This document shows, piece by piece, positions 500 to 20,627 of a stretch of DNA of 64,000 nucleotides (position 1 is the first letter of the stretch; every line of letters starts with the position of its first letter). Source of the stretch: Arthrobacter sp. Lineage in GTDB: Bacteria > Actinomycetota > Actinomycetes > Actinomycetales > Micrococcaceae. The stretch lies in assembly GCA_026393275.1 (NCBI GenBank), contig JAPLAM010000028.1, positions 124,001-188,000 of the forward strand. Reading direction: 5' to 3'. The position numbers and the translations under genes were made by a program. Below the pieces are notes generated by a model that ran no database searches, was not told the DNA's origin, and saw only the letters and a list, made by a program, of their open reading frames with translations.

Positions 500-539
500 G
501 GCCCGTGCGGCGGCTCCCGCCGATGAGGAGCGTCGCGCT

Positions 540-3200
540 GTGACGGGGCGGTCGGAGGACCTGAGCGCGGCAGTTGACGCGCTCAGGGGTGGCACCCACG
601 TCGCTGTGCTGTTGCTGGGCGAGCACGGGATCGGCAAGTCGACGCTGATGGAAGCCGTTGCCGCCCAGTTGGACGGACAGGTGACACCCGTCCGCCTGCA
701 CGGCAGCCCGGCCCTGAGCCAGGTGCCCTACGGCGTGCTGGCGCCGTTCATCGTGGACCTGCCCGTGCAGGATGCCACGTCCCAGCTGGTCGTGCTGCGG
801 ACTTTCTGGGATTACCTCGAAGGGCAGCGGCGGGTGACCCAAAAACCGCTCCTGCTGATTGTCGACGACGCCCACGACCTGGATGAGGCCACAGCGGGGG
901 TCCTGGTAGAACTCGCAGCCGCCGGCTGGGCGAAGCTGCTCGTCGCCGCCGCGGCCCGCCCTGGGCTGCCGGAGCCGCTCCTGCAGCTGTGGTTCGAGGG
1001 CATTGCGGAACGGCACGACCTGCGACCGCTCACCCGGGAACAAACGGCCGATATCCTGGCTCACCGGCTCGGCCCCCAAGTCCTGCCCGCCGTCGCAGAG
1101 ACGCTCTGGGCCGCTTCGGCGGGGAACCCGCTGTTGCTGACCTGTCTGATTGACGACGCGAAGACTGACGGTACGCTGCTCCAGCGCAACGGGGTTTGGC
1201 TGCTCACCCGCCAGCTGAACAGCCACGGCGAACGGTTGAGCGACGTCGTCCGCCGCCAGTTGCTCCGACGCTCCGCGGAGGAAAGCAAGGCCCTGAACCT
1301 CGTGGCCCTGGCGGAACCGGTGGCCAGGACACTGATAGAAGCTTTGGTAAGCGCCCCCACCGTGGCGGGGCTCATCGAGGAGGAGCTGATCCGCGTCTCG
1401 GACGCACCTGAGGCTGAACTGCGGCTGTGGCACTCGGTTTACGGCGACACGCTTCGGACCCTGATTTCGCCTGCGCGAAGCCTCGAGCTCCGGCAGGGCT
1501 TGTTGCGGTTGATGGACCGGGAACCGGCCTCGGCGGAGGGGCTTCTGCGGCACGTGAGCTGGTCGATGGAATGCGGAGTCGAGGTCGAGGACAGACAGCT
1601 GCTCCGCGCCGCCGTGCTCGCCAGCAGGCTCTTCGAGGACGAACTTGCCCGCAAGGCGGCCTCCCAGGTGAAAGACCCTGAACTGCAGATCGCGGCGCGT
1701 GCGGTAATAGCACGAACGTACTACAACACCTCCAACCACGTGGCCGCACGGGACATTCTGGAGGCTGATTTCGCGCAAGGGCGCACGGTGGCCAGCCTGC
1801 TGACGGGGACCCTGCTGTGGGCTGCAGTCTTGTCCGCACTGGGACATTCGCCGGCCGACATCATGCGGCGCGCGGAGGCGCTGTTGCACGCAGGGGAGCG
1901 GCTCGCGACGGCCAATCCCGGCGAGGCCGAAGGCATCCTTGCCGCTTCTAGGGAGCGCGTCCGGACGATCCGAACCATGGTCCTGGCCCTGGCCGGCGAC
2001 GCCGAGGCCCTGGGCGCGCCCGGTGGCGACGCTGCCAGCCCGGGCGGGGAAGGGCCGCCGGCAGGCAATGTCGAAAGGGCCTTCGAGCTGGCACTGGAAG
2101 CCGACCGGCTGCTGCTCCAGGGAAAGCCGGACAGCGCCTTCGCGGCGGCCACCGCAGCATTGGACGCCGCCGGAACCGAGCCTGACGAACTGTACTTCCT
2201 CTCGGACTTCCTCGTGGTCCGCGCCGTCACCACGGCCGTCCACGGGGGCGACTGGAAGGCGGCCCAAGGCTTGCTGGAAGGATTTGTGGCGGGATCCGGA
2301 CCCAGCCTTATCTCCTTCGGCGGAGGGGTCCACGCGGCTACCGGTATCGTGCTGCTCTATCAGGGGAGAGCGGCCCAGGCCAAGAAAACACTACGGGCAG
2401 CGGTCGAAGCACTGCGGGTCTCGGATCCCCAACAACTGTTTTCCCTGACCGCAGCGATGGCCTTCGCCGCGGCCGCCGAGGCGGGTATCACCGAGAAGGC
2501 CGCGGAGTTCCTGGCCGACTACGAGTCCGCCCAGCCACCGCTCTCCCGGTACCTGCGCACCCTCTCCGCGATGGCCGTGGTGTACGGGAAGGCCCGGCTG
2601 GGCGGCTACGACGGCGCGGCGGAGGAGTTGCAGCGGCTCGGGAGGCCCGACGGCGGCCGCCACGATGCGGGCTTGGAGTTCGATGCGCTGGCCTTCAGGC
2701 TGGCACTCGGCGACACGACCGCGGCACCCCGGCTGCGCGAACTGCAGCCTGAGCTGGAAGGACGCAGGGCGGCGGCCATTTGCGGCTACGCCGCTGCGAT
2801 CGAAACGGAGCAGCCCGGGGACCTGGTCGAAGCGGCCAAGACGTGTGAGGAAATTGAACTCTGGGGTTTCGCGGCCCAGGCGTACGGCGCTGCCGCCGAG
2901 GCGTATCGGGAGTCCGGCGACGTGCTGCGGGAGCGCATGGCACTGTCCCAACGGCACCGCTGCCAGGACCGGGCCGAAAACGGACCGGGGCTGGAGCCTG
3001 CCGAGCAAGCGGATACGCTCGGACTCCTGACCCGCCGGGAACGCGACATCGTGGCGCTGGCGGTCCGAGGTATGAGCGACCGGCAAATCGCTACCGAGCT
3101 CCAGGTTTCGGTCCGGACGGTGGAAGGCCACCTTTACCGGAGCTACGCGAAACTGAACGTCAAGGGCCGCGAGGAACTCCGCCGAATGGCCGCGGAGTAG
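540..3200 (+). CDS. Large ATP-binding LuxR-family (LAL) transcriptional regulator 1
   Basis: Cytoplasmic STAND/AAA-type regulator of 886 aa. An N-terminal P-loop GEHGIGKST lies at residues ~27-35 and a Walker B LLIVDDAHDLD near residues 102-112. A long Ala/Leu-rich helical-repeat middle follows, then a LuxR HTH at about residues 825-886 (LTRRERDIVALAVRG, SVRTVEGHLYRSY). The frame is open upstream to 405, overlapping the previous gene out of frame. I chose GTG at 540 because GAGGAG at 525-530 gives a well-spaced ribosome site and the encoded VTGRSEDL matches the family start, in which a short 'GR' segment precedes the P-loop. Such proteins bind ATP and a ligand or partner and then activate transcription. 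Neighbouring paralogues and downstream surface-polysaccharide genes suggest control of the cell surface. The ligand is unknown. Confidence 0.88.
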   Translation: MTGRSEDLSAAVDALRGGTHVAVLLLGEHGIGKSTLMEAVAAQLDGQVTPVRLHGSPALSQVPYGVLAPFIVDLPVQDATSQLVVLRTFWDYLEGQRRVTQKPLLLIVDDAHDLDEATAGVLVELAAAGWAKLLVAAAARPGLPEPLLQLWFEGIAERHDLRPLTREQTADILAHRLGPQVLPAVAETLWAASAGNPLLLTCLIDDAKTDGTLLQRNGVWLLTRQLNSHGERLSDVVRRQLLRRSAEESKALNLVALAEPVARTLIEALVSAPTVAGLIEEELIRVSDAPEAELRLWHSVYGDTLRTLISPARSLELRQGLLRLMDREPASAEGLLRHVSWSMECGVEVEDRQLLRAAVLASRLFEDELARKAASQVKDPELQIAARAVIARTYYNTSNHVAARDILEADFAQGRTVASLLTGTLLWAAVLSALGHSPADIMRRAEALLHAGERLATANPGEAEGILAASRERVRTIRTMVLALAGDAEALGAPGGDAASPGGEGPPAGNVERAFELALEADRLLLQGKPDSAFAAATAALDAAGTEPDELYFLSDFLVVRAVTTAVHGGDWKAAQGLLEGFVAGSGPSLISFGGGVHAATGIVLLYQGRAAQAKKTLRAAVEALRVSDPQQLFSLTAAMAFAAAAEAGITEKAAEFLADYESAQPPLSRYLRTLSAMAVVYGKARLGGYDGAAEELQRLGRPDGGRHDAGLEFDALAFRLALGDTTAAPRLRELQPELEGRRAAAICGYAAAIETEQPGDLVEAAKTCEEIELWGFAAQAYGAAAEAYRESGDVLRERMALSQRHRCQDRAENGPGLEPAEQADTLGLLTRRERDIVALAVRGMSDRQIATELQVSVRTVEGHLYRSYAKLNVKGREELRRMAAE

Positions 3201-3425
3201 GTGTTCCCTGCTTTAGTTGCCCGCACTACGGCCGGGGCACTCGCAGACCCGTCGGCAACTACTTGGTTCGCCGCCGGAGGCGCCCGGCGGCATGTGAGTA
3301 CAGCCGCGTAGAGGCTCGCCGGGTACGCGCCGTGCAATCGAGTACTACCTACGGATGTCTTTGCGGCGGCCAGTCCATACTGTGGATTTATCACTGGTCA
3401 AACATTGATTGCGAAGGTCTCTCCC
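3201..3425 (+). promoter_or_regulatory. Upstream region of LAL regulator 2 with CGRGTA half-sites
   Basis: CGGGTA at 3320-3325 and CGAGTAC at 3339-3345 lie in the same orientation 19 bp apart, about two helical turns. The same half-sites make up the 20-bp palindrome at 9002, 11665 and 18781. No full palindrome is present here. Autoregulation of the array is an inference. Confidence 0.35.
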
Positions 3426-6158
3426 ATGTTTCAGCAAGAAGCCGGCGTGCCTGCGGGCAGCGGCAAAACAGACACGATTTCACTCGCACAACAACCATCG
3501 AAGGGGCGCCCGGAAAAACCATTCACCCGGCAACTGGTCGTTTCCGACGTCGTTGGCACAATGACGTCAGGCTCCGGCTGCGGCGTCGTGCTGGTGGGCG
3601 AACACGGCTCCGGGAAGTCGTTCATCGCTCAGCGCGCCCTGGAACAACTTGGCGACGACTACCTGGTCGTCCAGGTCCGGGGCAGTTCCATTTCATCGAA
3701 ACTCCCGTACGGGGCCCTCAGCGTGCTCCTCAACGACCTCGATTCATCCCACCTCGAGCACCCCCTGATGGTGCTCCGCGGACTCACCCAACTGCTCCAC
3801 ACGAAGGCCCAGGGACGCCCCATCGTCATCTTCGTGGACAACGCCCACGACCTGGACGATCTTTCCTGCATGATGGTGGCCCAGCTCAGCGCCGGGGGCC
3901 ACGTGACGTTGCTGGCCGCCTGCGTGGACCTGCCGCACGTCGGCGGCGACATCATGGGACTCTGGAAGGATGACCTGCTTCGCCGGGTTGACCTGGAACC
4001 GTTCGACTTCGCCGAGACGGCCGCAACGCTCAACCAGGAATACGGCGGACACTTCTCGCATACGGCGTCCCGGGCGCTCTGGAGTGCCAGCGGCGGGAAC
4101 GCGCTGTTCCTCCACTCGCTGGCGCGCGAACAGATCAAGCTTGGCACGATCGTGCGGCAAGGGGACGCCTGGGTCCTCAACGGCCGTCCCATCGCCCTGA
4201 CCGGAGAAGTCCGGGACGTAATTAAAGCCCGGCTGAACAGGCTCAGCCCCGGCCAGCGAGACGTTTTTGAACTCCTGGCGCTCGCCGGTGCCGTTCCGCT
4301 CCAGACGCTCATGGGGATCTTCAACCCGCACGACATGGACAACCTGCAGGAGCGGGGCCTCATCCACGTCAGCCACGACCACCCGCCGATGGTCAGCGTC
4401 GCCAACCCGGTGACCGCGACGATCGTCGCCGGTGTGGTTCCCCCGGGACGCAGCGCGGAACTCCGGCGCCGCCTCACGGCCGTGCTGGCGGACACCGAGC
4501 AGGCCGAACCCGCCGGGTCCGCCGACGTGGCCTGGGCCCTGGACTGCGGGGAGCAAATCAGCATCAGTACAGCACTGACCGCCGCCCGTCTGGCCAACAA
4601 CGCGTCGGACCCGACGTCGGCGCTGCGATTCGTCCACGAAATCGACGGCTTCGGGGCCGCCGCCGGCGTGGCCATCGAATCCGTGCAGGCTCACATCGCG
4701 GTCAACAATGATGAGTCAGCCCGGCGGGTCCTTCACGGCCTTGAAGCTACCAGCGGCGGGGATCTGCCGCTGGTCGAGTGGGTGGCCCTGCAGTTGCTGC
4801 AGGCGGAGCTGGACCAGCGCGGTCCCGGCACTTCCGCCGCGGCACGGGCCAGGTTGAGCCTGGTCCGCGACCGTCTCGCGGAGCCGACCACGGAAGACTC
4901 GGCGGCGCTGGCGGCAGCCCGCGAACAGTTGCGTCTCGCCGAGTGCAAACTGGCTGCCTTCGAGGGCCGCTATGGCGACGTCCTGGCTCTCCTGCCCGAT
5001 CGTGGTCCCGAACTTGCCACGGAGACTGGAATCCTCACCGCGAGCCTGCTCTGCGAAGCCATGGCCGTCAGCGGCGAGGTCCTGGATGCCATGGCGCTGG
5101 GCAAGCAGGTCATCGCAGCAGCCGCGACCGTTCCTCTCGCCGACCGCACCATGCGGGAGATCCGTGGCCGGTTCCTGCTGCTGATGCTGCTGTCCGCAAA
5201 TTTCCGGGACGCCTCCGCCTTCCTTTCGGCCACGTCCGCCACGGACGAGCCGCAGGCGCGCCTTGGCGGGATGTTCGAGATCGGCCAAGGTGTCATCGAT
5301 CTCCACGACGGACACCTGGACGGTGCTATTCCGTGGCTTGAGGCCGGGATGTGGCAGCTCCGGGTGCAGGACCCCGATGCATTGTCCAGTCTGGCCACGG
5401 CGGCCTGCGCCTATGCGGCCGCGCTGGCCGGCGACGAGGAAAAGGCCACCCAGTTGCTCGCCGACGTGACGCAGCCGCGACGTCATGGTTCCTGGCTGGT
5501 GCGTCGGTTGACGCGTTACTTTGAGCTCTGCTCGCTGGCGGAACTCGGCCAGCGGGCGTCTGCGATCCGTACGCTGGTCGCCGAAGCGGACAGCGACGCC
5601 GACGCCGGCGCCCCAGCCACGGGGCTGCTCTTCCTTTCTGCGGCGGCCAGGCTGGGGGAACGGCAGCTTTGCCAGAAACTCGCCGGCGTCGCCGGGCAGG
5701 TGACGGGACAGTTCGCCCTGTTGTGCATGCGGCTAGCCGACGGGGTGAAGGACTTCGCGAGCGAGCAGCTGCTGGCTGTTGCCAAGGACGCCGACGCTGC
5801 CGGGAATGCTGTCTTTGCCCGCGACGTGGCCCGTCGGGCGGTCCATTGCGCCAACGAAGCCGGAAACCGGATAGCGCTCCGCATTTCGCAGCGTACGGAA
5901 CAGTCCCTCGATGACAGATTCGGGAGTCCCAAGAACGGCCTGCACTCGCTGACCACGTCGACGCTCACGGCCAGGGAATGCGAAGTGGCTGTCCGGGCAG
6001 CGGCCGGGGCTTCCAACCGCAAAATCGCCGAACAGATGCACGTGTCCGTGCGCACGGTGGAGGGCCACTTGTACCAGGTTTACGCAAAACTCCATGTTGC
6101 CAGCCGATCGGAGCTCAAAGATGTCATCTCGAGTCCGGTCAGCGCCCGTATCGGTTAG
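3426..6158 (+). CDS. Large ATP-binding LuxR-family (LAL) transcriptional regulator 2
   Basis: A 910-aa paralogue of the genes on either side. The P-loop GEHGSGKS is near residues 57-64 and the Walker B region reads IVIFVDNAHDLDD. The middle is helical repeat. The C-terminal ~65 residues are a LuxR HTH (LTARECEVAVRAAAGASN, SVRTVEGHLYQVYAKLHV). An in-frame TTG lies at 3405, but ATG 3426 is preceded by GAAGG at 3413-3417 with 8-nt spacing and gives a sensible N-terminus. A 204-bp gap precedes this gene, longer than the other gaps in the array, and holds half-sites CGGGTA (3320-3325) and CGAGTAC (3339-3345) related to the palindrome found elsewhere in the window. It may therefore have its own, possibly autoregulated, promoter. 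The effector is unknown. Confidence 0.87.
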   Translation: MFQQEAGVPAGSGKTDTISLAQQPSKGRPEKPFTRQLVVSDVVGTMTSGSGCGVVLVGEHGSGKSFIAQRALEQLGDDYLVVQVRGSSISSKLPYGALSVLLNDLDSSHLEHPLMVLRGLTQLLHTKAQGRPIVIFVDNAHDLDDLSCMMVAQLSAGGHVTLLAACVDLPHVGGDIMGLWKDDLLRRVDLEPFDFAETAATLNQEYGGHFSHTASRALWSASGGNALFLHSLAREQIKLGTIVRQGDAWVLNGRPIALTGEVRDVIKARLNRLSPGQRDVFELLALAGAVPLQTLMGIFNPHDMDNLQERGLIHVSHDHPPMVSVANPVTATIVAGVVPPGRSAELRRRLTAVLADTEQAEPAGSADVAWALDCGEQISISTALTAARLANNASDPTSALRFVHEIDGFGAAAGVAIESVQAHIAVNNDESARRVLHGLEATSGGDLPLVEWVALQLLQAELDQRGPGTSAAARARLSLVRDRLAEPTTEDSAALAAAREQLRLAECKLAAFEGRYGDVLALLPDRGPELATETGILTASLLCEAMAVSGEVLDAMALGKQVIAAAATVPLADRTMREIRGRFLLLMLLSANFRDASAFLSATSATDEPQARLGGMFEIGQGVIDLHDGHLDGAIPWLEAGMWQLRVQDPDALSSLATAACAYAAALAGDEEKATQLLADVTQPRRHGSWLVRRLTRYFELCSLAELGQRASAIRTLVAEADSDADAGAPATGLLFLSAAARLGERQLCQKLAGVAGQVTGQFALLCMRLADGVKDFASEQLLAVAKDADAAGNAVFARDVARRAVHCANEAGNRIALRISQRTEQSLDDRFGSPKNGLHSLTTSTLTARECEVAVRAAAGASNRKIAEQMHVSVRTVEGHLYQVYAKLHVASRSELKDVISSPVSARIG

Positions 6159-6218: not shown

Positions 6219-8855
6219 GTGGAAAACCTGACTGAAGCCGCAGCCCTGATCGGCAGGTCCGGCGTCGTCAGGGACGTGGTCCGCTGCCTTCGCGACACAG
6301 GCAGGGCGGGGGCCCTGATTGTCGGCGGCTCGGGGTCCGGGAAGTCGACAGTCGTCAAGGCGGTCCTGGCGGAGCTGCAGCCGCAAGGAGCGGTAGTCCG
6401 ACTCGCTGCCACTCCGGCTCTAGCGGCCGTTCCGTTCGGTGCGCTGGCCCCCTATCTGGCAGGGCTTCCCGCGCAGGACCTTGACTCGTATGCGGCAGTC
6501 CTCGGGGCGGTGACAGCGAGCCTGAAATCCGAGCCGACCACGACACTGTTCGTGATTGACGACGCTCAGAGCCTGGACCGCGGGACCATCCAACTGGTTG
6601 CGCAGGCCGTTGCAACCGGCGCGGCGCGGCTGCTCGCCACGTGCCGTCCCGGGCCGCTGATCCCCGAGGAGTTCCTGGCGCTGTGGGATGACGGCATCAT
6701 CGCAAAATTCGATCTGGCGCCCCTGAGCCGTGCCGAGGTGCACCAGCTCTGCGAACAGGTGCTGCAGGCCGACGTGTCCCCGTGGGTTAGCGAGCTGTTC
6801 GGCAACCTGACCGAGGGCAATCCGTACATGCTGATGTCCTTGATCGATCATGCACGAACCACCGGATCCATTGGACAGCGCCGCGGGACGTGGTTTCTCC
6901 TGGCGCCGCCGGATCTGGGTGGCATCCCGGCCGCGGATCTGGTGGACCACCAGGTCCGCTCCTTGACCGCGGAGGAGAAAACCGCTGCCGACATCGTGGC
7001 CCTGGCCGGCCCGCTGGCACTCGGTCAAATTCTCCGGTTCAGCGGTCCTCGGGCCATCGACGCCCTCGAGATGGCCGGGATCATCACGGTCTCACGCGAC
7101 CTGGACCGCATCGTTAGGCCAGCCAGCCCGCTCATCGGAGAAGTCATCCGCGGCCGCGTCCCGGCGGCCCGGAGCGCCAGTCTCCGGGCCGACCTCCTGG
7201 CTCTTCCCTGGGCGGCGGCACTCCCGGAGTCATTTCTGAACCAGCTGCGCTGGTCGCTGGACGCCGGTGCGGATCTCGCATCCCCAGACTTGATCCGGGG
7301 CGCAACGGCGGCCAACATCGGCTTGGATACCGCGACCGCGCTCCGGGCCGCGGGAGCCGTACGAGAGGAGGGCTTCCTGTCCGAAGCGCGGATCCAGCTG
7401 GCCTATTCCAACTACATCCTCGGACGGTCGGAGGCCTCAACAGGTCTCCTTGAGGCCGCGCAGCCGGTTCGTTACGGGCGTGTGTCGTACCTTGCCGCCC
7501 TCCTCTCCGCCCGGCTCGGAAACCCGGCAGCAGCCCTCGAGCTGCCGCTTCAGGCCGGAGCGGAAGAGCTGAAGCCAGGTCCGGGGCTGCTCCCTTGGGC
7601 AGCGCCAAGCGTTGGCCTCGCCACCGGTCTCCTGCTGCACAGCTGGGACGGCCGGAGTGCGGAGCTTCAGGCCCAGCTCCAGGAGCTGGTCGCCGCCGCC
7701 GAGGGAAATCCGGAAATCCGGATTCCGGCGGTGTCCCGCCTTGCCGGGGTGTGGACCGCCCAGGGCCGGGTGCTTACGGGCCTGGGTATCGACCGGGAGG
7801 CATGGCGCTGGGTGCAGGGCGCCGGGCTGGCTCTTCCCCTGGTCTACGAAGATGTGCTGGCGCGGCACTGCCTGAACCTGATCCGTGCCGGGGAATGGGA
7901 AGAACTCGCTTCGGTACTCGACGACTACACCGCCGGCCTGCCCTCACGGCTGCTCTATAGCGGGGGACTGCTGCATGTGATGCGCGGCTACTCCCGGCTG
8001 CGGCAGGGGAGGATCCCGGAAAGTTTGGCCGAGCTGTTGCTCGGGGTGGAAGAACTCCTGATCGCCGATCCGTGGGAACTGCTTGCCTTTGCCCATGCCG
8101 TTACGGCCTATGCGGCTGCCGCCGTCGGACGCTCAGACGACGCGAAGGAGCAGGCGATTGCCTTCCGAAGCGCCGTTTACCGGGAGCCGGAGACCCTTCG
8201 GCTCCTCGCCGACGCCTATTGCACCGCCGCTGAAATTGCCTGTGGCAGCGGCGGTGAGGACGGCCCGGGCGAGCTCGACCGGCTCGCGGCGGAGGCGCAG
8301 CGGCAGGGACTTAGAGCCGTGGAGACCGATATCCGCCGCCTCGCCCTGCGTGGCGGGGACACAGCGGCAGCGGAGGCCCTGGCAGCCAGCAGCAGCGCCG
8401 TCGAAGGTCCCGAGGCGCGACTGCTGCGCGCATATGCGCTCGCCGTCGCCGCCTCCGACTCGGCCGAGCTTACGGCCCTCAGTGACCAGGCGATGAGCGC
8501 CGGATATCTGCTGCTGGCGCTCGAAGCCGGCCAGCAGGCAGCGTATTTGCTGGAAAGCGACTCGGACAAGTGGAAGCTCACAGCCGTCCAGCGCAAGGTG
8601 CACCACCGGATGGTCGCGGCCGGCATGTCCGGTCACATGAATATCGTCCGCGGCGAACACTATGCCGACCTCACATCCCGGGAATCCGAGATCTTGAAGC
8701 TGGTGGCGGGTGGAGCTTCGAACGCGGAGATTGCCGCCCAGCTGACTGTTTCGCAACGGACCGTGGAGGGGCACCTCTATAGGATTTTCGGGAAGCTAGG
8801 CGTCAGCCGGCGCGCCGAGCTCGTCGATGTGCAACGCGAGCTGCCGCCGGCCTAG
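6219..8855 (+). CDS. Large ATP-binding LuxR-family (LAL) transcriptional regulator 3
   Basis: An 878-aa member of the same tandem family. The P-loop GGSGSGKST is near residues 35-43, the Walker B region reads LFVIDDAQSLD, helical repeats fill the middle, and the C-terminus is a LuxR HTH (LTSRESEILKLVAGGASN, SQRTVEGHLYRIFGKLGV). The GTG start at 6219 has GGGAG upstream and a 60-bp gap to the previous stop, so co-transcription is likely. It is the last regulator of the array. It is followed by a 670-bp non-coding stretch carrying the lux-box-like palindrome at 9002-9021. The paralogues agree strongly in the HTH but diverge in the sensor region, which suggests similar DNA sites and different signals. 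That is inference. Confidence 0.87.
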   Translation: MENLTEAAALIGRSGVVRDVVRCLRDTGRAGALIVGGSGSGKSTVVKAVLAELQPQGAVVRLAATPALAAVPFGALAPYLAGLPAQDLDSYAAVLGAVTASLKSEPTTTLFVIDDAQSLDRGTIQLVAQAVATGAARLLATCRPGPLIPEEFLALWDDGIIAKFDLAPLSRAEVHQLCEQVLQADVSPWVSELFGNLTEGNPYMLMSLIDHARTTGSIGQRRGTWFLLAPPDLGGIPAADLVDHQVRSLTAEEKTAADIVALAGPLALGQILRFSGPRAIDALEMAGIITVSRDLDRIVRPASPLIGEVIRGRVPAARSASLRADLLALPWAAALPESFLNQLRWSLDAGADLASPDLIRGATAANIGLDTATALRAAGAVREEGFLSEARIQLAYSNYILGRSEASTGLLEAAQPVRYGRVSYLAALLSARLGNPAAALELPLQAGAEELKPGPGLLPWAAPSVGLATGLLLHSWDGRSAELQAQLQELVAAAEGNPEIRIPAVSRLAGVWTAQGRVLTGLGIDREAWRWVQGAGLALPLVYEDVLARHCLNLIRAGEWEELASVLDDYTAGLPSRLLYSGGLLHVMRGYSRLRQGRIPESLAELLLGVEELLIADPWELLAFAHAVTAYAAAAVGRSDDAKEQAIAFRSAVYREPETLRLLADAYCTAAEIACGSGGEDGPGELDRLAAEAQRQGLRAVETDIRRLALRGGDTAAAEALAASSSAVEGPEARLLRAYALAVAASDSAELTALSDQAMSAGYLLLALEAGQQAAYLLESDSDKWKLTAVQRKVHHRMVAAGMSGHMNIVRGEHYADLTSRESEILKLVAGGASNAEIAAQLTVSQRTVEGHLYRIFGKLGVSRRAELVDVQRELPPA

Positions 8856-9001: not shown

Positions 9002-9021
9002 TCGGGTAATCCCTACTCGTG
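9002..9021. promoter_or_regulatory. Lux-box-like 20-bp imperfect palindrome, copy B
   Basis: TCGGGTAA-N4-TACTCGTG. It has the same 20-bp architecture as the copies at 11665 and 18781, with half-sites CGGGTA and the inverse of CGAGTA. The length and two-fold symmetry suit a dimeric LuxR/NarL-type HTH. It lies ~55 bp upstream of the TATAAT box of the candidate small RNA. Binding by an adjacent LAL regulator is inferred. Confidence 0.5.
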
Positions 9022-9076
9022 TGCGGCTTGGTCCTTCGCGGTTGACTTAAGTCAGTTCCGAGAACGTCTCACCCTT

Positions 9077-9082
9077 TATAAT
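9077..9082 (+). promoter_or_regulatory. Consensus -10 box of the candidate small RNA
   Basis: A perfect TATAAT in otherwise GC-rich DNA, predicting a transcript start near 9089. No good -35 hexamer sits 17 bp upstream. TTGACT at 9042-9047 is 29 bp away, too far for normal spacing, so an activator may substitute for it. Confidence 0.55.
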
Positions 9083-9088
9083 CCGAAC

Positions 9089-9312
9089 TCCTTCATTGGA
9101 ATCGTACGGTGCCCTTGCCGGGCAGCCGTACCCCGAAGACGGAGCCGGCGGCGTCAGAGCCTTCTGAGACCGAGGCTCTCCCCCCAGCCGCCGCCGGCTC
9201 CCTTAACACGGTCTGCACGCCGTAGGTGCGGTGTACGAAAACCGCACCGGCGATAGCAAGAGAGTGTCGACGCCCCGCCTGTGGACCTACGGCCCGCACG
9301 CGGGGCGTTTCT
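9089..9312 (+). ncRNA. Candidate structured small RNA or leader with intrinsic terminator
   Basis: About 220 nt start just after a consensus -10 box. Stem 1 is GTACGG (9104-9109) with CCGTAC (9126-9131), and GCCC/GGGC pairs inside it. Stem 2 is a perfect 13-bp pairing of 9141-9153 with 9189-9201, topped by AGAGCCT/AGGCTCT. Stem 3 is GGTGCGGT (9225-9232) with ACCGCACC (9241-9248). The terminator is CGCCCCGC (9271-9278) with GCGGGGCG (9300-9307), followed by TTT. In addition GCCGTAGGT (9219-9227) is perfectly complementary to ACCTACGGC (9285-9293) in the terminator loop, which gives a pseudoknot or an anti-terminator. I do not recognise it as 6S, SRP, tmRNA or RNase P RNA. It could be a free small RNA or a leader for sufS. 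Confidence 0.5.
9271..9310 (+). terminator. Intrinsic terminator of the candidate small RNA
   Basis: 8-bp perfect GC stem CGCCCCGC/GCGGGGCG with a 21-nt loop, followed by TTTCTC. The loop contains ACCTACGGC, which can pair with 9219-9227. Confidence 0.6.
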
Positions 9313-9420
9313 CATGCCAGGGCATCAGAGGGCGCGGCCGGCCGAAAAGTCACCGCTTACGGCTGGCCGAACTAGGGGCCGCGACCGCTATTGCTGTCTG
9401 CCCCGGCGTTGCACAGGAGT

Positions 9421-9458: not shown

Positions 9459-10835
<1,377 letters not shown>

Positions 10836-11361: not shown

Positions 11362-11664
11362 GAAGGCACGCCGTGTTGTGGTCTCCGCCTCCTGTTGACG
11401 TACCTGCCTGGTAAAGCGGACCCGGCGTTGTTGAGCCTGGATGAGTGGTTCCTAGCGGCGCCGTGCCCGCCCATCCAAGCTCCACACACCTGCTCCGCGC
11501 CGGCACTCAACGTGCGTGCCCTTGCTGTGGCCGCAGACCCTCCGACATGCCGTCAGGAAGGCTAGCTGCCCCTTCCCGCGATGATCGACGAGTAGCCAAC
11601 CGAGTGGTGGAACGATGCCGAAACGGGTATTCGGCTGCCACTTCGCGGTGGGCCCCCCATAAAG

Positions 11665-11684
11665 ACGGGTAGACCCCACTCGTG
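11665..11684. promoter_or_regulatory. Lux-box-like 20-bp palindrome, copy C, with promoter
   Basis: ACGGGTAG-N4-CACTCGTG. The flanks are also conserved with copy D: AAAG before it and CCTGAAG after it. TACCCT at 11706-11711 fits the actinobacterial TAnnnT -10 box and places the palindrome centre about 42 bp before the predicted start, the usual position for an activator overlapping -35. ACGAGTAG and ACGGGTAT half-sites lie 35-77 bp further upstream. Confidence 0.6.
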
Positions 11685-11979
11685 CCTGAAGTAGTGCTTG
11701 GTTCCTACCCTGAATCATGTTGGGGCATAGAAAAGACCGGGAAGTACTGGAACCCCGGAAGATGCAAGATGCACCTGACTCTCGGCAGCAGGGGCCGCGA
11801 TTCTATGTTCCCCTTTCCCCCGAGGTCAGACGCCTTCCATCCGATTGGGAGCAGCCATCCAGTTCTGAACCGGTGACGAGCGGGGACGTTTCCGTGGAAC
11901 TCAGACCTCTCCGTCGTCGGCTCCTACAGGTCCACAGAAAATCAACGGGACAGCACGAAAACCGGAAGGTCGAAGAATC

Positions 11980-13401
11980 ATGACGCCGAACACTAAAACA
12001 AAGAATCGCCGAGCCAAGGCGCCGGAAGTCCCGCCGCTGTCGGACGCGGAGACTCAATGGCCGGATGAGATGACCCGGAACGTGGCCCCGGCGCAGGCAA
12101 TCACGACAGTGCCGTTCAGTGAGCCGGCGGATGCGGCACAGGCCTTCAGCTTCGATGTGGCGATCGTAGGCCTGGGCTACGTGGGTCTCCCGACAGCGCT
12201 TGCAATCAATGCCTCCGGCCGGCGTGTTCTCGGGCTCGACGTCTCGGAGGCGCGGCTGGCCGTCATCCGCTCCCAAGAGGCCGATCTGCTGGACTCCGAC
12301 AAAGTCCGGCTGGAATCCGCCCTAAGTGACCCCGCCTTCATGATCAGCACCGATCTTTCCTTGCTGGCACGTGCCGCCGCTGTCGTTGTCTGCGTTCCTA
12401 CCCCCGTGGACCCGTATCTCGTTCCTGACCTCGGAATCCTCCGGGCAGCATGCGCCTCCGTGGTCGAATTTGCCGTTCCGGGCCAGCTTTTGATGCTGAC
12501 CTCAACAACCTATGTCGGATCCACCCGCGACCTCCTGGCCACGCCCTTGGCAGCCAGGGGCCTGATCCCCGGACGGGACGTTTTCGTGGCGTTCTCGCCG
12601 GAACGCATTAACCCGGGTGTGGATGCCTTCTCGCATGAGGACGTCCCCCGGGTCGTTGGCGGGGTGACCCAGGCCTGCGGCGATGCTGCAGCCGCGCTGC
12701 TCGGTATGAGCACCAAGCTCGTACATAAAGTCCCCTCGGCAGATGTGGCCGAAATGACCAAGCTCGTGGAAAACACCTTCCGGGCCGTGAACATCGCACT
12801 GGCAAACGAGTTCGCGGACATCTGCCAAGGGCTTGGCATGGAGGTCATGGACGTCATCGATGCCGCATCAACCAAACCATACGGCTACATGCCGTTCACT
12901 CCCGGACCCGGCGTCGGCGGCCACTGCATCCCCTGTGATCCGCACTACCTGCTCTGGCAGTTGCGGAAGGCCCGGGTCACTTCACCGGTCATCGAACATG
13001 CGATGGCAGGCATCGCCGGTAGGCCCCACCAGGTGGTCGAAAAGGCGCGCAAGATCCTCTCCGAGCGCAACCATGGTCTCACGGGTGCGAGGGTCCTCGT
13101 CCTGGGCGTGGCATACAAACCGGACGTCGAGGACCTGCGGGAGTCGCCAGCGCTGGAAATCATCGCCGAGTTGATCGCAGACGGCGCCGACGTGGCCTAC
13201 CACGACCAGTGGTGCCCCACGGCGCCGGACGGGCACGGCGGTCAGCTTCAATCGCTCGCGGATCCGAGGCTTTGGGAGGCCGATCTGGTGATCATGCACA
13301 CGAAGCATTCGGCCATGGATGTCGGCTGGCTCGCAGAAGCCCCGGCCGTCCTGGACACGACCTATCGGCTTCCCGCCCACGCCAACGTGACGCGGTTGTG
13401 A
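11980..13401 (+). CDS. Nucleotide-sugar dehydrogenase (UDP-HexNAc 6-dehydrogenase type)
   Basis: NAD-dependent four-electron oxidation of a UDP-hexosamine to a uronic acid is predicted. The 473-aa protein has ~50 polar residues before the Rossmann motif VAIVGLGYVGLPTALAI. The catalytic segment GPGVGGHCIPCDPHYLLW follows the HCIP-x-DPxYL pattern of the WbpA/WecC/VipA group (GlcNAc/ManNAc substrates) rather than the GFGGxCFPKD of UDP-glucose dehydrogenases. The C-terminal domain LVLGVAYKPDVEDLRESPALEI completes the family. The start ATG 11980 has GGAAGG ~12 nt upstream and overlaps a small upstream frame by ATGA. The epimerase gene follows 40 bp later. Together they would supply an activated amino-uronic sugar for the polysaccharide genes downstream. 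The exact substrate is uncertain. Confidence 0.85.
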   Translation: MTPNTKTKNRRAKAPEVPPLSDAETQWPDEMTRNVAPAQAITTVPFSEPADAAQAFSFDVAIVGLGYVGLPTALAINASGRRVLGLDVSEARLAVIRSQEADLLDSDKVRLESALSDPAFMISTDLSLLARAAAVVVCVPTPVDPYLVPDLGILRAACASVVEFAVPGQLLMLTSTTYVGSTRDLLATPLAARGLIPGRDVFVAFSPERINPGVDAFSHEDVPRVVGGVTQACGDAAAALLGMSTKLVHKVPSADVAEMTKLVENTFRAVNIALANEFADICQGLGMEVMDVIDAASTKPYGYMPFTPGPGVGGHCIPCDPHYLLWQLRKARVTSPVIEHAMAGIAGRPHQVVEKARKILSERNHGLTGARVLVLGVAYKPDVEDLRESPALEIIAELIADGADVAYHDQWCPTAPDGHGGQLQSLADPRLWEADLVIMHTKHSAMDVGWLAEAPAVLDTTYRLPAHANVTRL

Positions 13402-13441: not shown

Positions 13442-14449
13442 ATGAAGACCACAATCACTGGGGGAGCCGGCTTCATCGGAAGTCACCTTGTCGAACACCT
13501 GCTGGCTGCAGGTGACGAGGTAACCGTGCTCGACAATCTCTCCACCGGTCGCCTGGAGAATCTGCGCAATGTCATCGGACACCGCAAGTTTCATTTCGTC
13601 GAGGGGAACATCCTCGACAGGTCAGCGGTGGACAGGGTGGTTTCCGGGTCCGATCGCGTCTTCCACCTGGCGGCCGCCGTCGGGGTGAACCTGATCGTCG
13701 AACATCCTCTGGAGAGCCTCCGGACGAACATTCATGGCACGGAAGTTGTTTTGGACGCTGTCCTCGAAGCCGGCGCCTCGCTTCTGCTGGCCTCAACCAG
13801 CGAGATCTATGGAAAGAACGCCTCGGACAGCCTGAGCGAGGAAGCCGACCGTATTCTCGGATCCGCACTGAAATCCCGGTGGACCTACGCCGCAGCGAAA
13901 GGCATAGACGAGGCCTTCGCGCATGCCTACTGGCGGGAGTTCGGACTGCGAGTGGCAATCGTACGGCTCTTCAACACGGTGGGACCGCGGCAGACCGGTC
14001 GCTATGGCATGGTGGTGCCGCGTCTCGTGAAGCAGGCCCTCTCCGGCCAGCCCCTTACCGTGTACGGCGATGGGAAACAGACCCGTTGCTTCTCGTATGT
14101 GGGGGACATCGTGCCGGCGATCACCAGGATTTCGGCGGAAACCTCGGCCTACGGCAACGCCTACAACCTCGGGGGAAGCTATGAGATCTCGATCCTCACG
14201 CTTGCCGAGCGGATCGTGGAGCTTCTAGGCAGCAAGAGCGACATCCTTTTAGTCCCCTACGAAGAGGCATACGCCGAAGGCTACGAGGACATGCGCCGCC
14301 GAGTACCAGACAACAGCAAGGCGCGGCAGCTGGTCGGATTCGACCCGAAAACGACATTGGACCAGATCATCCAGAACGTCGCTGCAGAACACCGTCCGCC
14401 CAATACGCCGGACCCGGTCCAGTGGAAAGTGACCATGGCTATCAACTAG
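13442..14449 (+). CDS. NAD-dependent sugar epimerase/dehydratase (SDR)
   Basis: Extended SDR enzyme acting on a nucleotide sugar. The N-terminal TGGAGFIGSHLVEHLL binds NAD. A catalytic serine/threonine region lies in LLASTSEIYG and the active-site YxxxK in WTYAAAKGIDEAFA. RLFNTVGPRQTGRYGMVVP and CFSYVGDIVPAI are typical of UDP-glucose 4-epimerase and UDP-glucuronate decarboxylase-like members. It is 335 aa, a normal length. The start has AGGAG 4-5 nt upstream. It sits between the dehydrogenase and the first deacetylase and is probably co-transcribed with the former. It likely converts the uronic sugar made by its neighbour. Epimerase and decarboxylase activities cannot be told apart by eye. 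Confidence 0.85.
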   Translation: MKTTITGGAGFIGSHLVEHLLAAGDEVTVLDNLSTGRLENLRNVIGHRKFHFVEGNILDRSAVDRVVSGSDRVFHLAAAVGVNLIVEHPLESLRTNIHGTEVVLDAVLEAGASLLLASTSEIYGKNASDSLSEEADRILGSALKSRWTYAAAKGIDEAFAHAYWREFGLRVAIVRLFNTVGPRQTGRYGMVVPRLVKQALSGQPLTVYGDGKQTRCFSYVGDIVPAITRISAETSAYGNAYNLGGSYEISILTLAERIVELLGSKSDILLVPYEEAYAEGYEDMRRRVPDNSKARQLVGFDPKTTLDQIIQNVAAEHRPPNTPDPVQWKVTMAIN

Positions 14450-14522: not shown

Positions 14523-16499
14523 TTGAGTCTCATGAGCATGCTGAAGCGGTCAAGTGCGTCCTCGTTTCCACCTCGACACAGATCAGGGACCCCCCCGGGC
14601 ATGCGCAGACGCGGTCTGACGGCGGGGTCAACCCTGCTGCTGATGGTGGCGTCGCTGATGGGGCTGTCGGTCCCTGCCGCTCACGCGGCCGGCACAACCA
14701 TCGTGACATTCACCTTCGACGACGCCAACTCGGACCAGTTGGTGGCCGCTGACGCCTTGAAGGCGGCAGGGATGGCCGGGACGTTCTTCCTAAATTCCGG
14801 CTACCTGAACGGCGTCAATCATATGACGACGGCGCAGGCTCAAGGCCTGCAGGCAGCCGGGCACGAGGTCGGTGGCCACACAGTGACCCACGCGGATCTG
14901 GCCCAGGTCGGCCCGGACGAGGTCAGGCGGCAGATCTGCAATGACAGGGTAACTCTCGCCGGGCTTGGTTTGACCGTGACTAACTTCGCTTATCCCTTTG
15001 CAAGCACCAGCCCCGACGCGGAAGCTGCCGTTGCGGCCTGTGGTTACAACAGCGGCCGCGGCCTCGGCGACCTTAAGAGCAAAGTTGTTGGAACCGAGGC
15101 TCTCCCCGTCGCGGAGACGGTGCCCCCGGCGACTCCGTTCTTCACCAAGGCCCCGGACCAGTTGGATAACACCTGGACCCTGCTGGACCTGGAGAACCTC
15201 GTGACCAACGCCCAGGCCGGCGGGGGCGGGTGGGTACAACTGACGTTCCACCACATCGGCGACGGCAAAGACCCAACGTCGGGCGTCGTCGACCCGCTCT
15301 CGGTAAGCACCGATATCTTCAACCAATTCGTGACCTGGGTCGCCGGGCAGCAGACGAACGCGACCAGCCCTGTCCAGGTGAAGACCGTGGCTGGTGTTAT
15401 CGGGGGCGCCATGAAGCCGGTCGTGCCTGGGCCCGCGGCTCCGCCTGCCCAGACCGCAGGTAACCTGATCAAAAACCCCAGCCTCGAAACCCCGGGGCTC
15501 AACGCCTCGACTGTTCCCCGCTGCTGGCAGGAAGGCGGCTATGGGGCAAACACCCGGGCGTTCACCCGTGTCGTCCCCGGCCACGCGGGGTCCGCAACTG
15601 CCGCCGAGCAGTTGATCGTTTCAGCCCTTACGAGTGGCTCCGGGGCGATGCTCCCGTACCTCGACACGGGTGAGTGTGCACCCAGCGCCACCGCCGGCCA
15701 TTCCTACCGGGCCATGGCCTGGTACAAGTCAACCGCCACCACCCAGTTCGATGTGCATTACCGGACGGGAACGGGTTCGTGGGTGTACTGGACCTCCAGT
15801 CCCTACTTCGCAGTATCAGCTGGCTGGTCCCAGGCCAGCTGGGATACCGGACCCGTTCCGGCAGGGGCCACGGCGATCAGCATCGGACTAAACCTCATCA
15901 GCAACGGCACGCTGGTTACGGACGACTACGAGCTGTACGACCTGGCCGGAGTGAAGACCTTCAGCGATGTAACCGCCACGAACCAGTTCAACAGGGAAAT
16001 TAGCTGGCTCTCGAACAACCTCATTACCCAGGGCTACCCCGACGGCACTTTCCGCCCGGTGACCTCTATCAGCCGGGAAGCAATGGCGGCCTTCCTGTAC
16101 CGTTTGGCGGGTAGCCCGGCTGTCCCGGCTACGGCCCCGACTTTCGTGGACGTACCATCAGGCAACCAGTTCTACAACGAAATTCGGTGGCTTGCTTCCA
16201 CTGGCATCACGACGGGCTATCCCGACAAAACCTTCCGTCCGGGCGACCCTGTGAATCGCGACGCGATGGCGGCATTCCTCTACCGCTACAACGGCAAGCC
16301 TGCGGTTCCTGCGACGGCCCCGACGTTCCCGGACGTCGCTCAGTCCAATCTCTTCTACAACGAGATTAGGTGGCTTGCCGCAACCCAGATCACGACAGGC
16401 TATCCGGACAACACCTTCCGCCCGGTCCAGCCAATCAACAGGGACGCGATGGCAGCCTTCGTCTACCGCTACAGCATGGACTTTCCCAAGCTATTCTGA
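14523..16499 (+). CDS. Secreted polysaccharide deacetylase with CBM-like and three SLH domains
   Basis: Extracellular CE4 (NodB) enzyme expected to remove N-acetyl groups from an amino-sugar polymer. Of 658 aa, residues 1-56 are a signal peptide ending AHA. NodB covers about 59-290 with the metal/base motif TFDD (63-66) and HTVTH (119-123), both intact. Residues ~313-475 form a beta-rich CBM-like module with Cys in PRCWQ and GECAP. Residues ~476-655 hold three SLH repeats (ITQGYPDGTFRP, ITTGYPDKTFRP, ITTGYPDNTFRP) that should anchor it to the cell wall. The TTG at 14523 is 5 nt after AAGGA. ATG 14532 or 14538 are alternatives. It is the only one of the three deacetylase homologues here that carries SLH repeats. 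Confidence 0.9.
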   Translation: MSLMSMLKRSSASSFPPRHRSGTPPGMRRRGLTAGSTLLLMVASLMGLSVPAAHAAGTTIVTFTFDDANSDQLVAADALKAAGMAGTFFLNSGYLNGVNHMTTAQAQGLQAAGHEVGGHTVTHADLAQVGPDEVRRQICNDRVTLAGLGLTVTNFAYPFASTSPDAEAAVAACGYNSGRGLGDLKSKVVGTEALPVAETVPPATPFFTKAPDQLDNTWTLLDLENLVTNAQAGGGGWVQLTFHHIGDGKDPTSGVVDPLSVSTDIFNQFVTWVAGQQTNATSPVQVKTVAGVIGGAMKPVVPGPAAPPAQTAGNLIKNPSLETPGLNASTVPRCWQEGGYGANTRAFTRVVPGHAGSATAAEQLIVSALTSGSGAMLPYLDTGECAPSATAGHSYRAMAWYKSTATTQFDVHYRTGTGSWVYWTSSPYFAVSAGWSQASWDTGPVPAGATAISIGLNLISNGTLVTDDYELYDLAGVKTFSDVTATNQFNREISWLSNNLITQGYPDGTFRPVTSISREAMAAFLYRLAGSPAVPATAPTFVDVPSGNQFYNEIRWLASTGITTGYPDKTFRPGDPVNRDAMAAFLYRYNGKPAVPATAPTFPDVAQSNLFYNEIRWLAATQITTGYPDNTFRPVQPINRDAMAAFVYRYSMDFPKLF

Positions 16500-16531
16500 T
16501 CCGGCACAGCAAAGCTAGATTGGTTGGGGGC

Positions 16532-16584
16532 GGACGGCCGTGCATCCGGAGATGCTTTCCGGAGGTGCGGCCGTCCTACGTTTC
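16532..16584 (+). terminator. Hairpin after the SLH deacetylase gene
   Basis: GGACGGCCG (16532-16540) pairs perfectly with CGGCCGTCC (16568-16576), with further CCGGA/TCCGG pairing inside. TACGTTTC follows. Probable terminator separating the deacetylase from the lipoprotein gene. Confidence 0.5.
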
Positions 16585-16624
16585 AAAGCTACCTATTGGT
16601 GATCGATGGTCTGGGCGGGACACA

Positions 16625-18780: not shown

Positions 18781-18800
18781 ACGGGTAGAGGCCACTCGTG
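18781..18800. promoter_or_regulatory. Lux-box-like 20-bp palindrome, copy D, with promoter
   Basis: ACGGGTAG-N4-CACTCGTG, identical in both half-sites to copy C. AAAG precedes it and TCCTGAAG follows it. TACGCT at 18821-18826 is placed as in copy C (21 versus 22 bp after the palindrome), and ATGTTGG follows the -10 box in both. Confidence 0.6.
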
Positions 18801-19122
18801 TCCTGAAGATAAGCGCTCTTTACGCTGTGGATGTTGGTTGCACGGAAATTTGGGGAAGAAGCAGGTCTCAAAATGGTACGGGTACTCACGGCCGGCTCGG
18901 CGTCAGGCGTAGGGTTCCGGCGGACAAACTGCCGGACAGCAGCCCTCCGGCGCGGACTCAGGCGCCAACCGCGCTCACTTGAGCGGCGAGCCAGGAGTCA
19001 GAGAGCCCATTTCCCGCGGCACGTCGCCGCTCCCTGGAATCGGTACGCGCTCGATCGCGGTTGAACGGACGATATCTGGGTAGAAGCGCGGACCGGCCGG
19101 CACGATGAGAGGGGCATCTGAC

Positions 19123-20568
19123 ATGACGAATAATTCGGGGAGTAAGAAGGCGCCGAAGCGGGCCCTCCTGCAGCGCGCAGGAGCAACCGGCCGGAAGTTC
19201 GACGTCAAAGCTGTCTGGGTCGTGTCCTCTGTGCTCGCTCTCGCCGCCCTGACCGTTCCCGCGCTCCTGGCACCGAGAGGCCAGACTGCGTCGCCGGCCC
19301 CCAACGAAGCCGGCGCCGGCCCTCCTTCCGTCGCCGATGCCCGTCCGGCACTGACGACCGTGAGTTTCACCTTCGACAGCGGCCGATCCAGCCAACTGGC
19401 GGCGGCGGCGACACTCAAGAAGGAAGGCATGCGCGGCACCTTCTTCGTCAACTCCGGATTTCTGCAGGAACCCGGCTACATGCGCGTCGACGATCTCCAC
19501 GCCTTGGTGGCCGACGGAAACGAAATCGGCGGCCACACGGTCACGCTGGCAGACCTGAGCGTCGTCACCGGCGACGAGGCCGGCCGACAGGTCTGCTCCG
19601 ACCGCAGCAATCTGGCAGATCTCGGCTTCAAGGTATTTTCCTTTGCCTACCCGTTTGGCGCCGTCACGCCAGCGGCAGAAAGCCAAGTGGCCGCCTGCGG
19701 ATATAACAGCGCACGGAGCAGCGCTGACATCCGGAGCCCCTTCGGATGCGCAGACTGCGACGTTGCCGAAACGGTCCGGCCCGCCGATCCGTTCCGGACC
19801 CGTTCCGTCGTCGAAATCGGCAACACCTGGAATCTAGCGAACCTGCAGCAGGTGGTGACAGCCGCGGAGGAGCGTGGCGGCTGGCTGCAGCTGGTCTTTT
19901 ACGACATCGACGAAAGCGGATCTCCGCGCTCGATAACCCCGCAGCTGTTTAAGGACTTCGCAGAGTGGCTGGCACCGCGGAACGAGGCGAAATCGACGGC
20001 TGTCCGGACGGTGCATGAGGTCATCGGAGGCGGTGCTAAGCCGGCCGTCCCGGGCCCTTCGGCCCCTCCCGCGCCGCCGGGAGTCAACGCACTGAAAAAT
20101 CCCGGGCTGGAGACCGCGGGTAGGTACGGCCTGCCGCAGTGCTGGCAAACGGCCTCGTACGGCGAAAACGACCACGTTTTGAGCAGCCTCAGCCCGGGGC
20201 ATAGCGGCACCATAGCCCGTCGCCTGGACGTCAGCGGCTACAAGTCCGGAGATGCCAAGTTACTGCCCACACTCGATCTGGGCGAATGCTCGCCCAGCGT
20301 CGTGGCTGGACGCGCGTACACGATCAGTGCGTGGTACACCTCCACGGGGCCCACGCAGTTCGAACTTTACTATCGCAACAAGGCCGGCACCTGGACCTAC
20401 TGGACGGCCAGCCCTTGGTTTACCTCCACCCTTAGTTACCAAGAGGCCCGGTGGACAACCCCCGCCGTGCCCGCAGACGCCGTCGGGCTCAGCTTCGGCC
20501 TGAACCTGTTCAGCAACGGCGAGCTTGCCACCGACGATTACGAAATGTTGGATGCCGGCACACCCTGA
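19123..20568 (+). CDS. NodB/CE4 homologue with lost metal ligands and CBM-like domain (probable pseudo-deacetylase)
   Basis: The 481-aa protein has a hydrophobic N-terminal segment (about residues 32-52) as signal peptide or anchor. A NodB-like domain covers ~75-300 and one CBM-like module ~321-480 (NPGLE, PQCWQT, ECSP, TDDYEML). The metal-site motifs are altered: TFDS (83-86) where relatives have TFDD, and HTVTL (138-142) where relatives have HTVTH. Two of the three CE4 metal ligands are thus replaced, so catalysis is unlikely. A binding or scaffolding role is possible. The rest of the fold is well conserved with the active paralogues, so this is not decay. ATG 19123 is chosen over 19105 because GAGAGGGG at 19107-19114 sits 8 nt before it. 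Confidence 0.85.
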   Translation: MTNNSGSKKAPKRALLQRAGATGRKFDVKAVWVVSSVLALAALTVPALLAPRGQTASPAPNEAGAGPPSVADARPALTTVSFTFDSGRSSQLAAAATLKKEGMRGTFFVNSGFLQEPGYMRVDDLHALVADGNEIGGHTVTLADLSVVTGDEAGRQVCSDRSNLADLGFKVFSFAYPFGAVTPAAESQVAACGYNSARSSADIRSPFGCADCDVAETVRPADPFRTRSVVEIGNTWNLANLQQVVTAAEERGGWLQLVFYDIDESGSPRSITPQLFKDFAEWLAPRNEAKSTAVRTVHEVIGGGAKPAVPGPSAPPAPPGVNALKNPGLETAGRYGLPQCWQTASYGENDHVLSSLSPGHSGTIARRLDVSGYKSGDAKLLPTLDLGECSPSVVAGRAYTISAWYTSTGPTQFELYYRNKAGTWTYWTASPWFTSTLSYQEARWTTPAVPADAVGLSFGLNLFSNGELATDDYEMLDAGTP

Positions 20569-20627
20569 ATCACGCCCACCCGTGTGCACGCCAGCGCGTT
20601 GCCGGCTGCAATGTATGGAATCGAGTC

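Follow-up and report, generated by a model that had tools for sequence, protein, structure and literature searches.

A candidate LAL-type operator linking surface-polysaccharide promoters to a conserved structured RNA in Arthrobacter

The DNA stretch analysed here, referred to as the window, comprises 64,000 nucleotides of an Arthrobacter sp. genome (contig JAPLAM010000028.1) and opens with a tandem array of LAL-type LuxR regulator genes, the first of which starts upstream of the window (Table 1). Pfam searches assigned an ATP-binding domain and a C-terminal GerE helix-turn-helix (HTH) domain to three of these proteins of about 900 amino acids, while LAL0 was assigned by size and HTH sequence only. 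All four genes end in the helix S[VQ]RTVEGHLY[QR], in agreement with the four regulators with near-identical recognition helices described in a first-pass annotation of this DNA. The array is followed by a structured RNA, by sufS, listed as a neighbour with no claim that it is a target, and by two gene groups headed by the nucleotide-sugar dehydrogenase gene (UGD) and the polysaccharide deacetylase gene PDA2, which by their sequence constitute an extracellular polysaccharide locus. Two conserved proteins of this cluster (16370-17413 and 17432-18577) had no Pfam or NCBIfam match, and a third (23950-25032) gave only a weak, sub-threshold NCBIfam match.

Table 1. Positions of genes and sequence features in the window.
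Feature	Position	Strand	Basis or remark
LAL regulator 0, 3' end (gene starts upstream, contig C39:121752-124499)	1..499	+	GerE-type helix SVRTVEGHLYQ
LAL regulator 1 (ORF limits; true start uncertain)	405..3200	+	Pfam AAA_16 and GerE
LAL regulator 2	3405..6158	+	Pfam AAA_16 and GerE
LAL regulator 3	6219..8855	+	Pfam AAA_16 and GerE
Operator site C, TCGGGTA-N5-TACTCGT	9002..9020	+	motif scan; similar sites after LAL array in relatives
Palindromic box TTGACTTAAGTCAG at -10 distance from site C	9042..9055	+	variants present behind site C of relatives
Structured RNA, outer limits estimated	9098..9206	+	R1 match, fold z, covariation
Hairpin followed by TTTCTC, possible end of site C transcript	9269..9309	+	fold z -3.9 for 9255-9325
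sufS, cysteine desulfurase (neighbour)	9504..10835	+	
Operator site A, ACGGGTA-N5-CACTCGT	11665..11683	+	motif scan, conservation in relatives
-10 box TACCCT, putative UGD promoter	11706-11711	+	TANNNT spacing conserved at site A loci
UGD leader ORF, 73 codons (alternative in-frame ATG at 11717)	11762..11983	+	stop overlaps UGD start as ATGA
Degenerate RNA copy in UGD leader	11858..11934	+	R1 18.2 bits, E 0.007 in window
Nucleotide-sugar dehydrogenase (UGD)	11980..13401	+	
NAD-dependent sugar epimerase/dehydratase	13442..14449	+	
Polysaccharide deacetylase with S-layer homology (SLH) domains	14523..16499	+	
Operator site B, ACGGGTA-N5-CACTCGT	18781..18799	+	motif scan, conservation in relatives
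-10 box TACGCT, putative PDA2 promoter	18821-18826	+	TANNNT spacing conserved at site B loci
Element E1, GGGG...GGTCTC-AAA-ATG, leader-ORF ribosome-binding region	18852..18875	+	complementary to RNA loop
PDA2 leader ORF, 63 codons; no RNA copy recognised within	18873..19064	+	GGTCTC kept
Polysaccharide deacetylase PDA2 (start 19105 or 19123)	19105..20568	+	
Polysaccharide deacetylase PDA3	20451..22514	+	
GT2 glycosyltransferase, PgaC/IcaA-like	22511..23953	+	below curated cut-off

Three operator sites were located in the window, TCGGGTAATCCCTACTCGTG at 9002 (site C), ACGGGTAGACCCCACTCGTG at 11665 (site A) and ACGGGTAGAGGCCACTCGTG at 18781 (site B), exactly where the first-pass annotation had placed them. 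Its 20-bp palindrome proved to be a genuine inverted repeat, but is better read as the 19-bp sequence ACGRGTA-N5-YACTCGT. Sites A and B also share the reported AAAG before and CCTGAAG after the repeat as well as ATGTTGG, and each is followed by the TANNNT-type -10 box expected from the annotation. If transcription starts 6-7 nt downstream of this box, the operator centre lies about 42-44 bp before the start, close to the 42 bp proposed earlier, and by direct reading of the sequence its position is likely class-II-like. Site C lacks the -10 spacing of sites A and B and carries a conserved TTGACTTAAGTCAGT at that place instead; a sigma-70 promoter scan around site C gave no match. The conserved palindrome TTGACTTAAGTCAG at 9042-9055 is not explained by the promoter type of sites A and B.

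Across the 3.96-Mb genome, the exact pattern CGGGTA-N6-ACTCGTG matched three times, always within the window and on the plus strand, compared to a single exact match of the reversed control pattern. The sites are thus local rather than scattered through the genome. When two mismatches were permitted, 37 motif matches stood against 47 control matches, which is noise and added no further sites in this genome, and in the window alone a scan with three mismatches returned 4 matches, not clearly above the shuffle mean of 2.1. Since these looser scans fall to shuffle or control level, it is the exact form of the motif that is special, and the two-mismatch search pattern defines no wider regulon in this genome.

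Among 121 genomes of the genus, 60 contained the exact motif (99 sites versus 27 control matches, counted manually), and a longer form with one mismatch was found in 91 (about 187 sites versus about 55 in the control, likewise counted manually). To these scans we added the PDA2 regions of all 25 Arthrobacter genomes matching the PDA2 deacetylase, located by the earlier site positions or by the position of the protein. In 24 of them a site with at most one mismatch was present both before UGD (site A) and before a deacetylase gene (site B), the latter being PDA2 in every case except one locus with PDA3 (L076); the 25th genome (G076, locus L094) had a single variant site before a lone deacetylase gene. 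The search of related genomes that the first-pass annotation had suggested hence revealed conservation upstream of both genes. Relative to the start of site A, the TANNNT box began at offset 41 in 22 loci, 40 in one and 38 in one, and, for site B, after 40 nt at 20 loci and 41 nt at the other 4, so that 47 of the 48 sites have a -10 box 40-41 nt from the site start, whereas site C has no such box. Sites A and B thereby combine the inverted repeat and the fixed -10 distance of LuxR/GerE-class operators, and the promoter part of the proposed regulatory module is well supported.

In loci viewed from relatives, the site also preceded genes for a LysM protein, a phosphatidylglycerol lysyltransferase-like protein, an AMP-binding/hexapeptide protein, a PqqD-containing cluster and another deacetylase; these are examples and the list is incomplete. 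By association, they suggest an envelope regulon. The site class ACGGGCATGCCCCACTCGTG is probably due to chance, as the nearest called genes at the two loci viewed (L107 and L108) lie on the opposite strand. Transcripts of the PqqD-containing cluster seem to open, just downstream of the motif, with a long inverted repeat, GTGCCGGCGA...TCGCCGGCAC or a close variant (loci L080, L110, L111, L112 and L117, less clearly L098), which is perhaps a distant cousin of the structured RNA described below.

The structured RNA downstream of site C is composed of a hairpin P1 (9104-9131, with a 5-nt loop in the window copy) and an outer stem of 12-13 bp (approximately 9141-9153 and 9189-9201) enclosing an inner hairpin with the loop TGAGACC (9165-9171) and an unpaired CCCCCC strand. 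The region 9078-9215 has a fold z of -5.0. Model R1, built from 21 copies including the window copy itself, matched the core at 9133-9211 with 81.7 bits. Downstream of site C this segment is nearly identical over 12 copies, and their LAL neighbours have diverged. In an alignment of 104 copies (94 distinct), two-sided changes occurred in 14 of 17 base pairs and 96.1 percent of pair cells could form, values that none of 500 shuffles reached; this alignment was fitted to the R1 model, which favours the covariation score, and a plain MAFFT alignment retained two-sided changes in 8 of the 17 pairs. L076, whose one RNA copy is also contained in L135, and the loci repeating others (L130, L145, L156, L163, L165 and L172) were excluded from the alignment. 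Compensatory changes above the controls identify the element as a structured RNA. At every position of TGAGACC, the same letter is retained by 95 percent or more of the 104 copies. The hairpin at 9269, which resembles hairpins seen by eye in some relatives, was not called in a terminator scan around site C, which called none, and is retained only as a possible transcript end.

Searches against Rfam 15 at the gathering threshold assigned no family within the window. The segment 8850-9510, compared at E values up to 5, matched only MIR4374 on the minus strand, at a chance-level 19 bits (gathering score 105), and 12 loci bearing RNA copies yielded tRNAs only. R1 at E up to 0.01 matched all 121 genus genomes with 1-10 matches each, the weak ones among them possibly due to chance or to the antisense strand of a true copy, and weak matches in the window's own genome on contigs C37 and C49 (27.6 and 24.6 bits) were treated as chance. 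With the limit set at E 0.001, the model matched 101 of 197 genomes of the family, in 19 of its 32 sampled genera. A sample of the order gave 13 matching genomes out of 248, 12 of them from the family and one from outside with 32.5 bits, which was treated as chance, and in a sample of the phylum 2 of 296 genomes matched, both of the genus.

The RNA is linked to the operator. In 42 of 62 copies found by the RNA model, a motif agreeing in at least 12 of 14 positions was present within 420 nt upstream, compared to 1 of 62 in the downstream control. Members of some paralogue groups are among the 20 copies with no good upstream motif, as are several copies of other genera, in which the motif may differ. 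When loci fetched by the motif were included, 83 of 103 copies had the upstream motif versus 1 of 103 downstream; one of the 104 copies was not counted, and as many loci had been fetched by the motif, the 62-copy count is the less biased one. The high antisense count (60 of 103) results from the palindromic nature of the site. The promoter module proposed in the first-pass annotation is real and conserved, but its conservation extends far past the promoter into the leader RNA, and the conserved unit consists of promoter, leader ORF and RNA. Likewise, the RNA, regarded earlier as a further target, is indeed linked to the operator, but is a family-wide structured RNA that also occurs in most UGD and PDA2 leaders of relatives. 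RNA copies are also present at loci lacking polysaccharide genes.

R1 at E up to 1e-7 detected the RNA in 21 of 24 site A (UGD) leaders and 17 of 24 site B leaders. Both leaders of the window are among the 10 of 48 in which it was missed: its PDA2 leader gave no R1 match and its UGD leader only a trace of 18.2 bits. In A and B leaders, and in some putative site C transcripts, a leader ORF opens at GGTCTC-N3-ATG, which is often preceded by GGGGA; the UGD leader of the window has lost the GGTCTC of this element, E1. The pattern GGGGR-N6-GGTCTC-N3-ATG matched 27 times in 17 of the 121 genomes, exclusively at sites A or B by coordinates, compared to 4 control matches. The leader ORFs span 23-103 codons, mostly 61-103, and most of them run through the RNA position; the four with just 23 codons, which end early, belong to site B and account for 4 of the 7 site B leaders without RNA. 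The leader layout at UGD is the same in relatives as in the window. For UGD, a leader ORF was detected in 20 of 24 loci, and its stop was invariably positioned -1 to +5 nt from the start of UGD. All 24 site B loci have a detected leader ORF; its stop falls -1 to +10 nt from a main-frame start in 16 of them, while the ORFs of the other 8, including that of the window, do not abut the detected main start. Leaders whose stop lies at or overlaps the next start, as expected for translational coupling, are thus found at UGD in 20 of the 20 detected cases, and in the window, and at site B in 16 of 24.

The leader-ORF start region containing GGTCTC is complementary over 6-7 nt to the nearly invariant RNA loop TGAGACC, and a second match, of the RNA C-run to GGGGA, follows in the correct antiparallel order. 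For the 35 leaders containing both parts, the predicted duplex of E1 and RNA had a mean energy of -24.2 kcal/mol versus -15.9 kcal/mol for shuffled E1, and 22 of the 35 duplexes ranked within the best 5 percent of shuffles. For the site C RNA and the PDA2 leader of the window, a duplex of -24.6 kcal/mol was predicted. Since E1 and the loop are both nearly invariant, the pairing gains little support from covariation, and in some relatives E1 and loop mismatch.

We consider a LAL operator combined with a second control layer of leader ORF and RNA to be the best explanation of the whole, and hold it with moderate confidence. The 19-bp ACGRGTA-N5-YACTCGT would be the operator of the LAL-type LuxR regulators encoded next door, and a regulator bound at about -43 would activate the promoters of the surface-polysaccharide operons and of the structured RNA. 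The polysaccharide mRNAs would start with a leader ORF carrying GGTCTC in its ribosome-binding region, whose body would span a copy of the RNA element in most relatives. In most leaders, the stop of this ORF, placed at or close to the structural-gene start, would couple translation of the two. The loop TGAGACC and the C-run are predicted to pair with the leader-ORF ribosome-binding region, either within the same mRNA (cis), from the separate site C RNA (trans), or both. Such pairing would block the leader ORF and, through the coupling, repress the polysaccharide gene at the level of translation until a presumed signal lifts the block. In this module the mechanism of the RNA is inferred.

A further-reaching version is tentative: the RNA may represent a new riboregulator family, universal in sampled Arthrobacter, within a two-tier circuit under one LAL-type operator. 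Here, the regulator would switch on both the polysaccharide mRNAs and a free RNA sharing the same loop and target pair, and the RNA would act in trans on GGTCTC leader-ORF starts, in the window as site C RNA on the PDA2 leader, as a brake on surface-polymer synthesis. Alternatively, the RNA could be a cis-acting riboswitch or attenuator, with a ligand or protein at the conserved loops altering translation or termination of the leader and the E1 pairing being incidental. The strongly conserved unpaired nucleotides inside a covarying stem, the leader position before UGD and PDA2, and a T-rich run after the outer stem in the UGD leader of many relatives would fit such a device. It is a serious alternative, though less likely, given that in the window the most conserved copy sits beside the LAL genes and has no structural gene shortly after it, that many other copies lie between unrelated genes, and that 6-7 nt of the loop are complementary to the ribosome-binding region.

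Concerning the regulator of the LAL operator model, co-location is the basis on which we infer that LAL proteins bind the operator, while the existence of a regulon is supported. Of 33 genus genomes, 32 have a LAL gene adjacent to the RNA copy, with a 1.7-kb contig as the only exception, and sufS lay inside the 3-kb RNA locus in 23 of the 33; these genomes, represented by one RNA copy each, are the 29 best-scoring of the 121 and 4 others. In relatives, sites A and B are flanked by same-helix LAL genes despite LAL identities to the window proteins as low as about 31-36 percent. Relatives of LAL3 occur in the named genomes Arthrobacter sp. Soil763 and H-02-3. The first-pass annotation had further proposed a local regulon joining the LAL array to surface-polysaccharide genes and a small RNA, which is borne out next to the array in its own genome; it is not purely local in all species, as many motif sites of relatives, including those before other envelope genes, had no LAL gene within the 12-20 kb fetched. 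These distant sites could instead indicate a different regulator of the operator, such as a response regulator of the NarL/FixJ type, with the LAL genes being mere neighbours or targets. GerE-type half-sites are common to the whole HTH class, and response regulators make up many of the nearest solved structures to the LAL3 HTH. Same-helix LAL genes, which recur next to the RNA in 32 of the 33 genomes examined and next to the UGD and PDA2 sites even at low LAL identity, render this improbable.

That the RNA is a REP- or MITE-like repeat spread by transposition and carried along with the promoter appears very unlikely. Matches number 1-10 in each genus genome, and most copies are diverged. The genomes with as many as 10 matches, the partial copies on three plasmids and the two near-identical copies in one genome are reminiscent of such repeats, but the element is present in every one of the 121 genus genomes, has a low copy number and a LAL context in 32 of the 33 examined, shows compensatory changes between its copies, and is linked to the promoter motif. 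Still less credible is that the leader ORFs, mostly open over 61-103 codons with ribosome-binding-like starts, encode functional small proteins whose coding constraint conserves the RNA: the reading frame of the RNA core in PDA2 leaders differs from that in UGD and site C leaders, and 798 nonsynonymous versus 345 synonymous single changes in the largest group reveal little peptide constraint, which together argue against conserved proteins.

Several known systems resemble parts of the locus. The lux box, ACCTGTA-N6-TACAGGT, and other operators of the LuxR, NarL or GerE class share with the window operator an inverted repeat with a GTA...TAC core and the class-II promoter position, whereas the 19-bp ACGRGTA-N5-YACTCGT lies beside LAL regulators rather than autoinducer-binding ones. 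LAL regulators are common in actinobacteria and, to our knowledge, few have known sites. MalT has the AAA-type ATPase domain and C-terminal GerE HTH in common with them, but recognises short asymmetric direct-repeat boxes, in contrast to the palindrome, the four tandem LAL genes and the linked RNA element of the window. VpsT, a Vibrio biofilm regulator and the best PDB match of the LAL3 HTH by sequence, is likewise tied to matrix polysaccharide, but differs in lacking the LAL ATPase part. The structured 6C or C-rich-loop sRNAs of actinobacteria also possess a C-run able to bind G-rich ribosome-binding sites, whereas the window RNA has no Rfam match and consists of a single long stem and an inner hairpin with the nearly invariant TGAGACC. 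Leaders with an upstream ORF and translational coupling share the leader stop overlapping or abutting a start codon; here, by contrast, the ribosome-binding region is complementary to a structured element in the same ORF, under a LuxR-type operator.

According to the part of the source available, ANTAR-target RNAs are multi-copy structured RNAs reported in Arthrobacter, consisting of two stem-loops whose hexanucleotide loops carry A1 and G4 (PMC8164766). On this description, the window RNA, which has a single nested arm whose loop region measures 8 nt, and a 5-nt P1 loop in the copy of the window, is not an ANTAR target. Ms1, as portrayed in the available part of its source (PMC9130861), fits neither in anatomy nor in context. 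A literature search by half-sites revealed no paper on this operator, judged by titles. Among the matches listed in open-access searches by topic and sequence, we recognised no description of the RNA or the operator, and the same applies to the accessible part of PMC9659744. The RNA, which is matched in all 121 Arthrobacter genomes sampled and in 19 of 32 sampled genera of the family but has no Rfam match, appears to have been overlooked. The analysis yields a candidate LAL operator, its putative targets and a testable promoter, and the association of the operator with leader ORF and RNA points to a way in which common soil bacteria may tune surface polymer synthesis.

Some RNA copies merit mention for their surroundings. 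Searches by blastn with the RNA detected no copy in phages and partial matches on three Arthrobacter plasmids. RNA-like segments occupy unannotated gaps of the plasmids p232 of Arthrobacter sp. Rue61a (L226) and pRK01 of A. alpinus (L227), one of them beside a MobF relaxase gene. Two places in one genome (L169 and L176) have the same printed RNA core and a common flanking ORF, and L169 is near two tRNA genes, which suggests a duplicated or mobile segment. In three genomes (L168, L173 and L175), RNAs of a separate subgroup that lacks the motif are positioned about 110-150 nt after seemingly the same gene. In other genera (L180, L182, L183, L184, L186 and L219) the RNA occurs beside LAL-like genes, in several cases between two ORFs, and in these genera of the family it may be the leader of a LAL gene; L186 contains two RNA copies about 40 nt apart.
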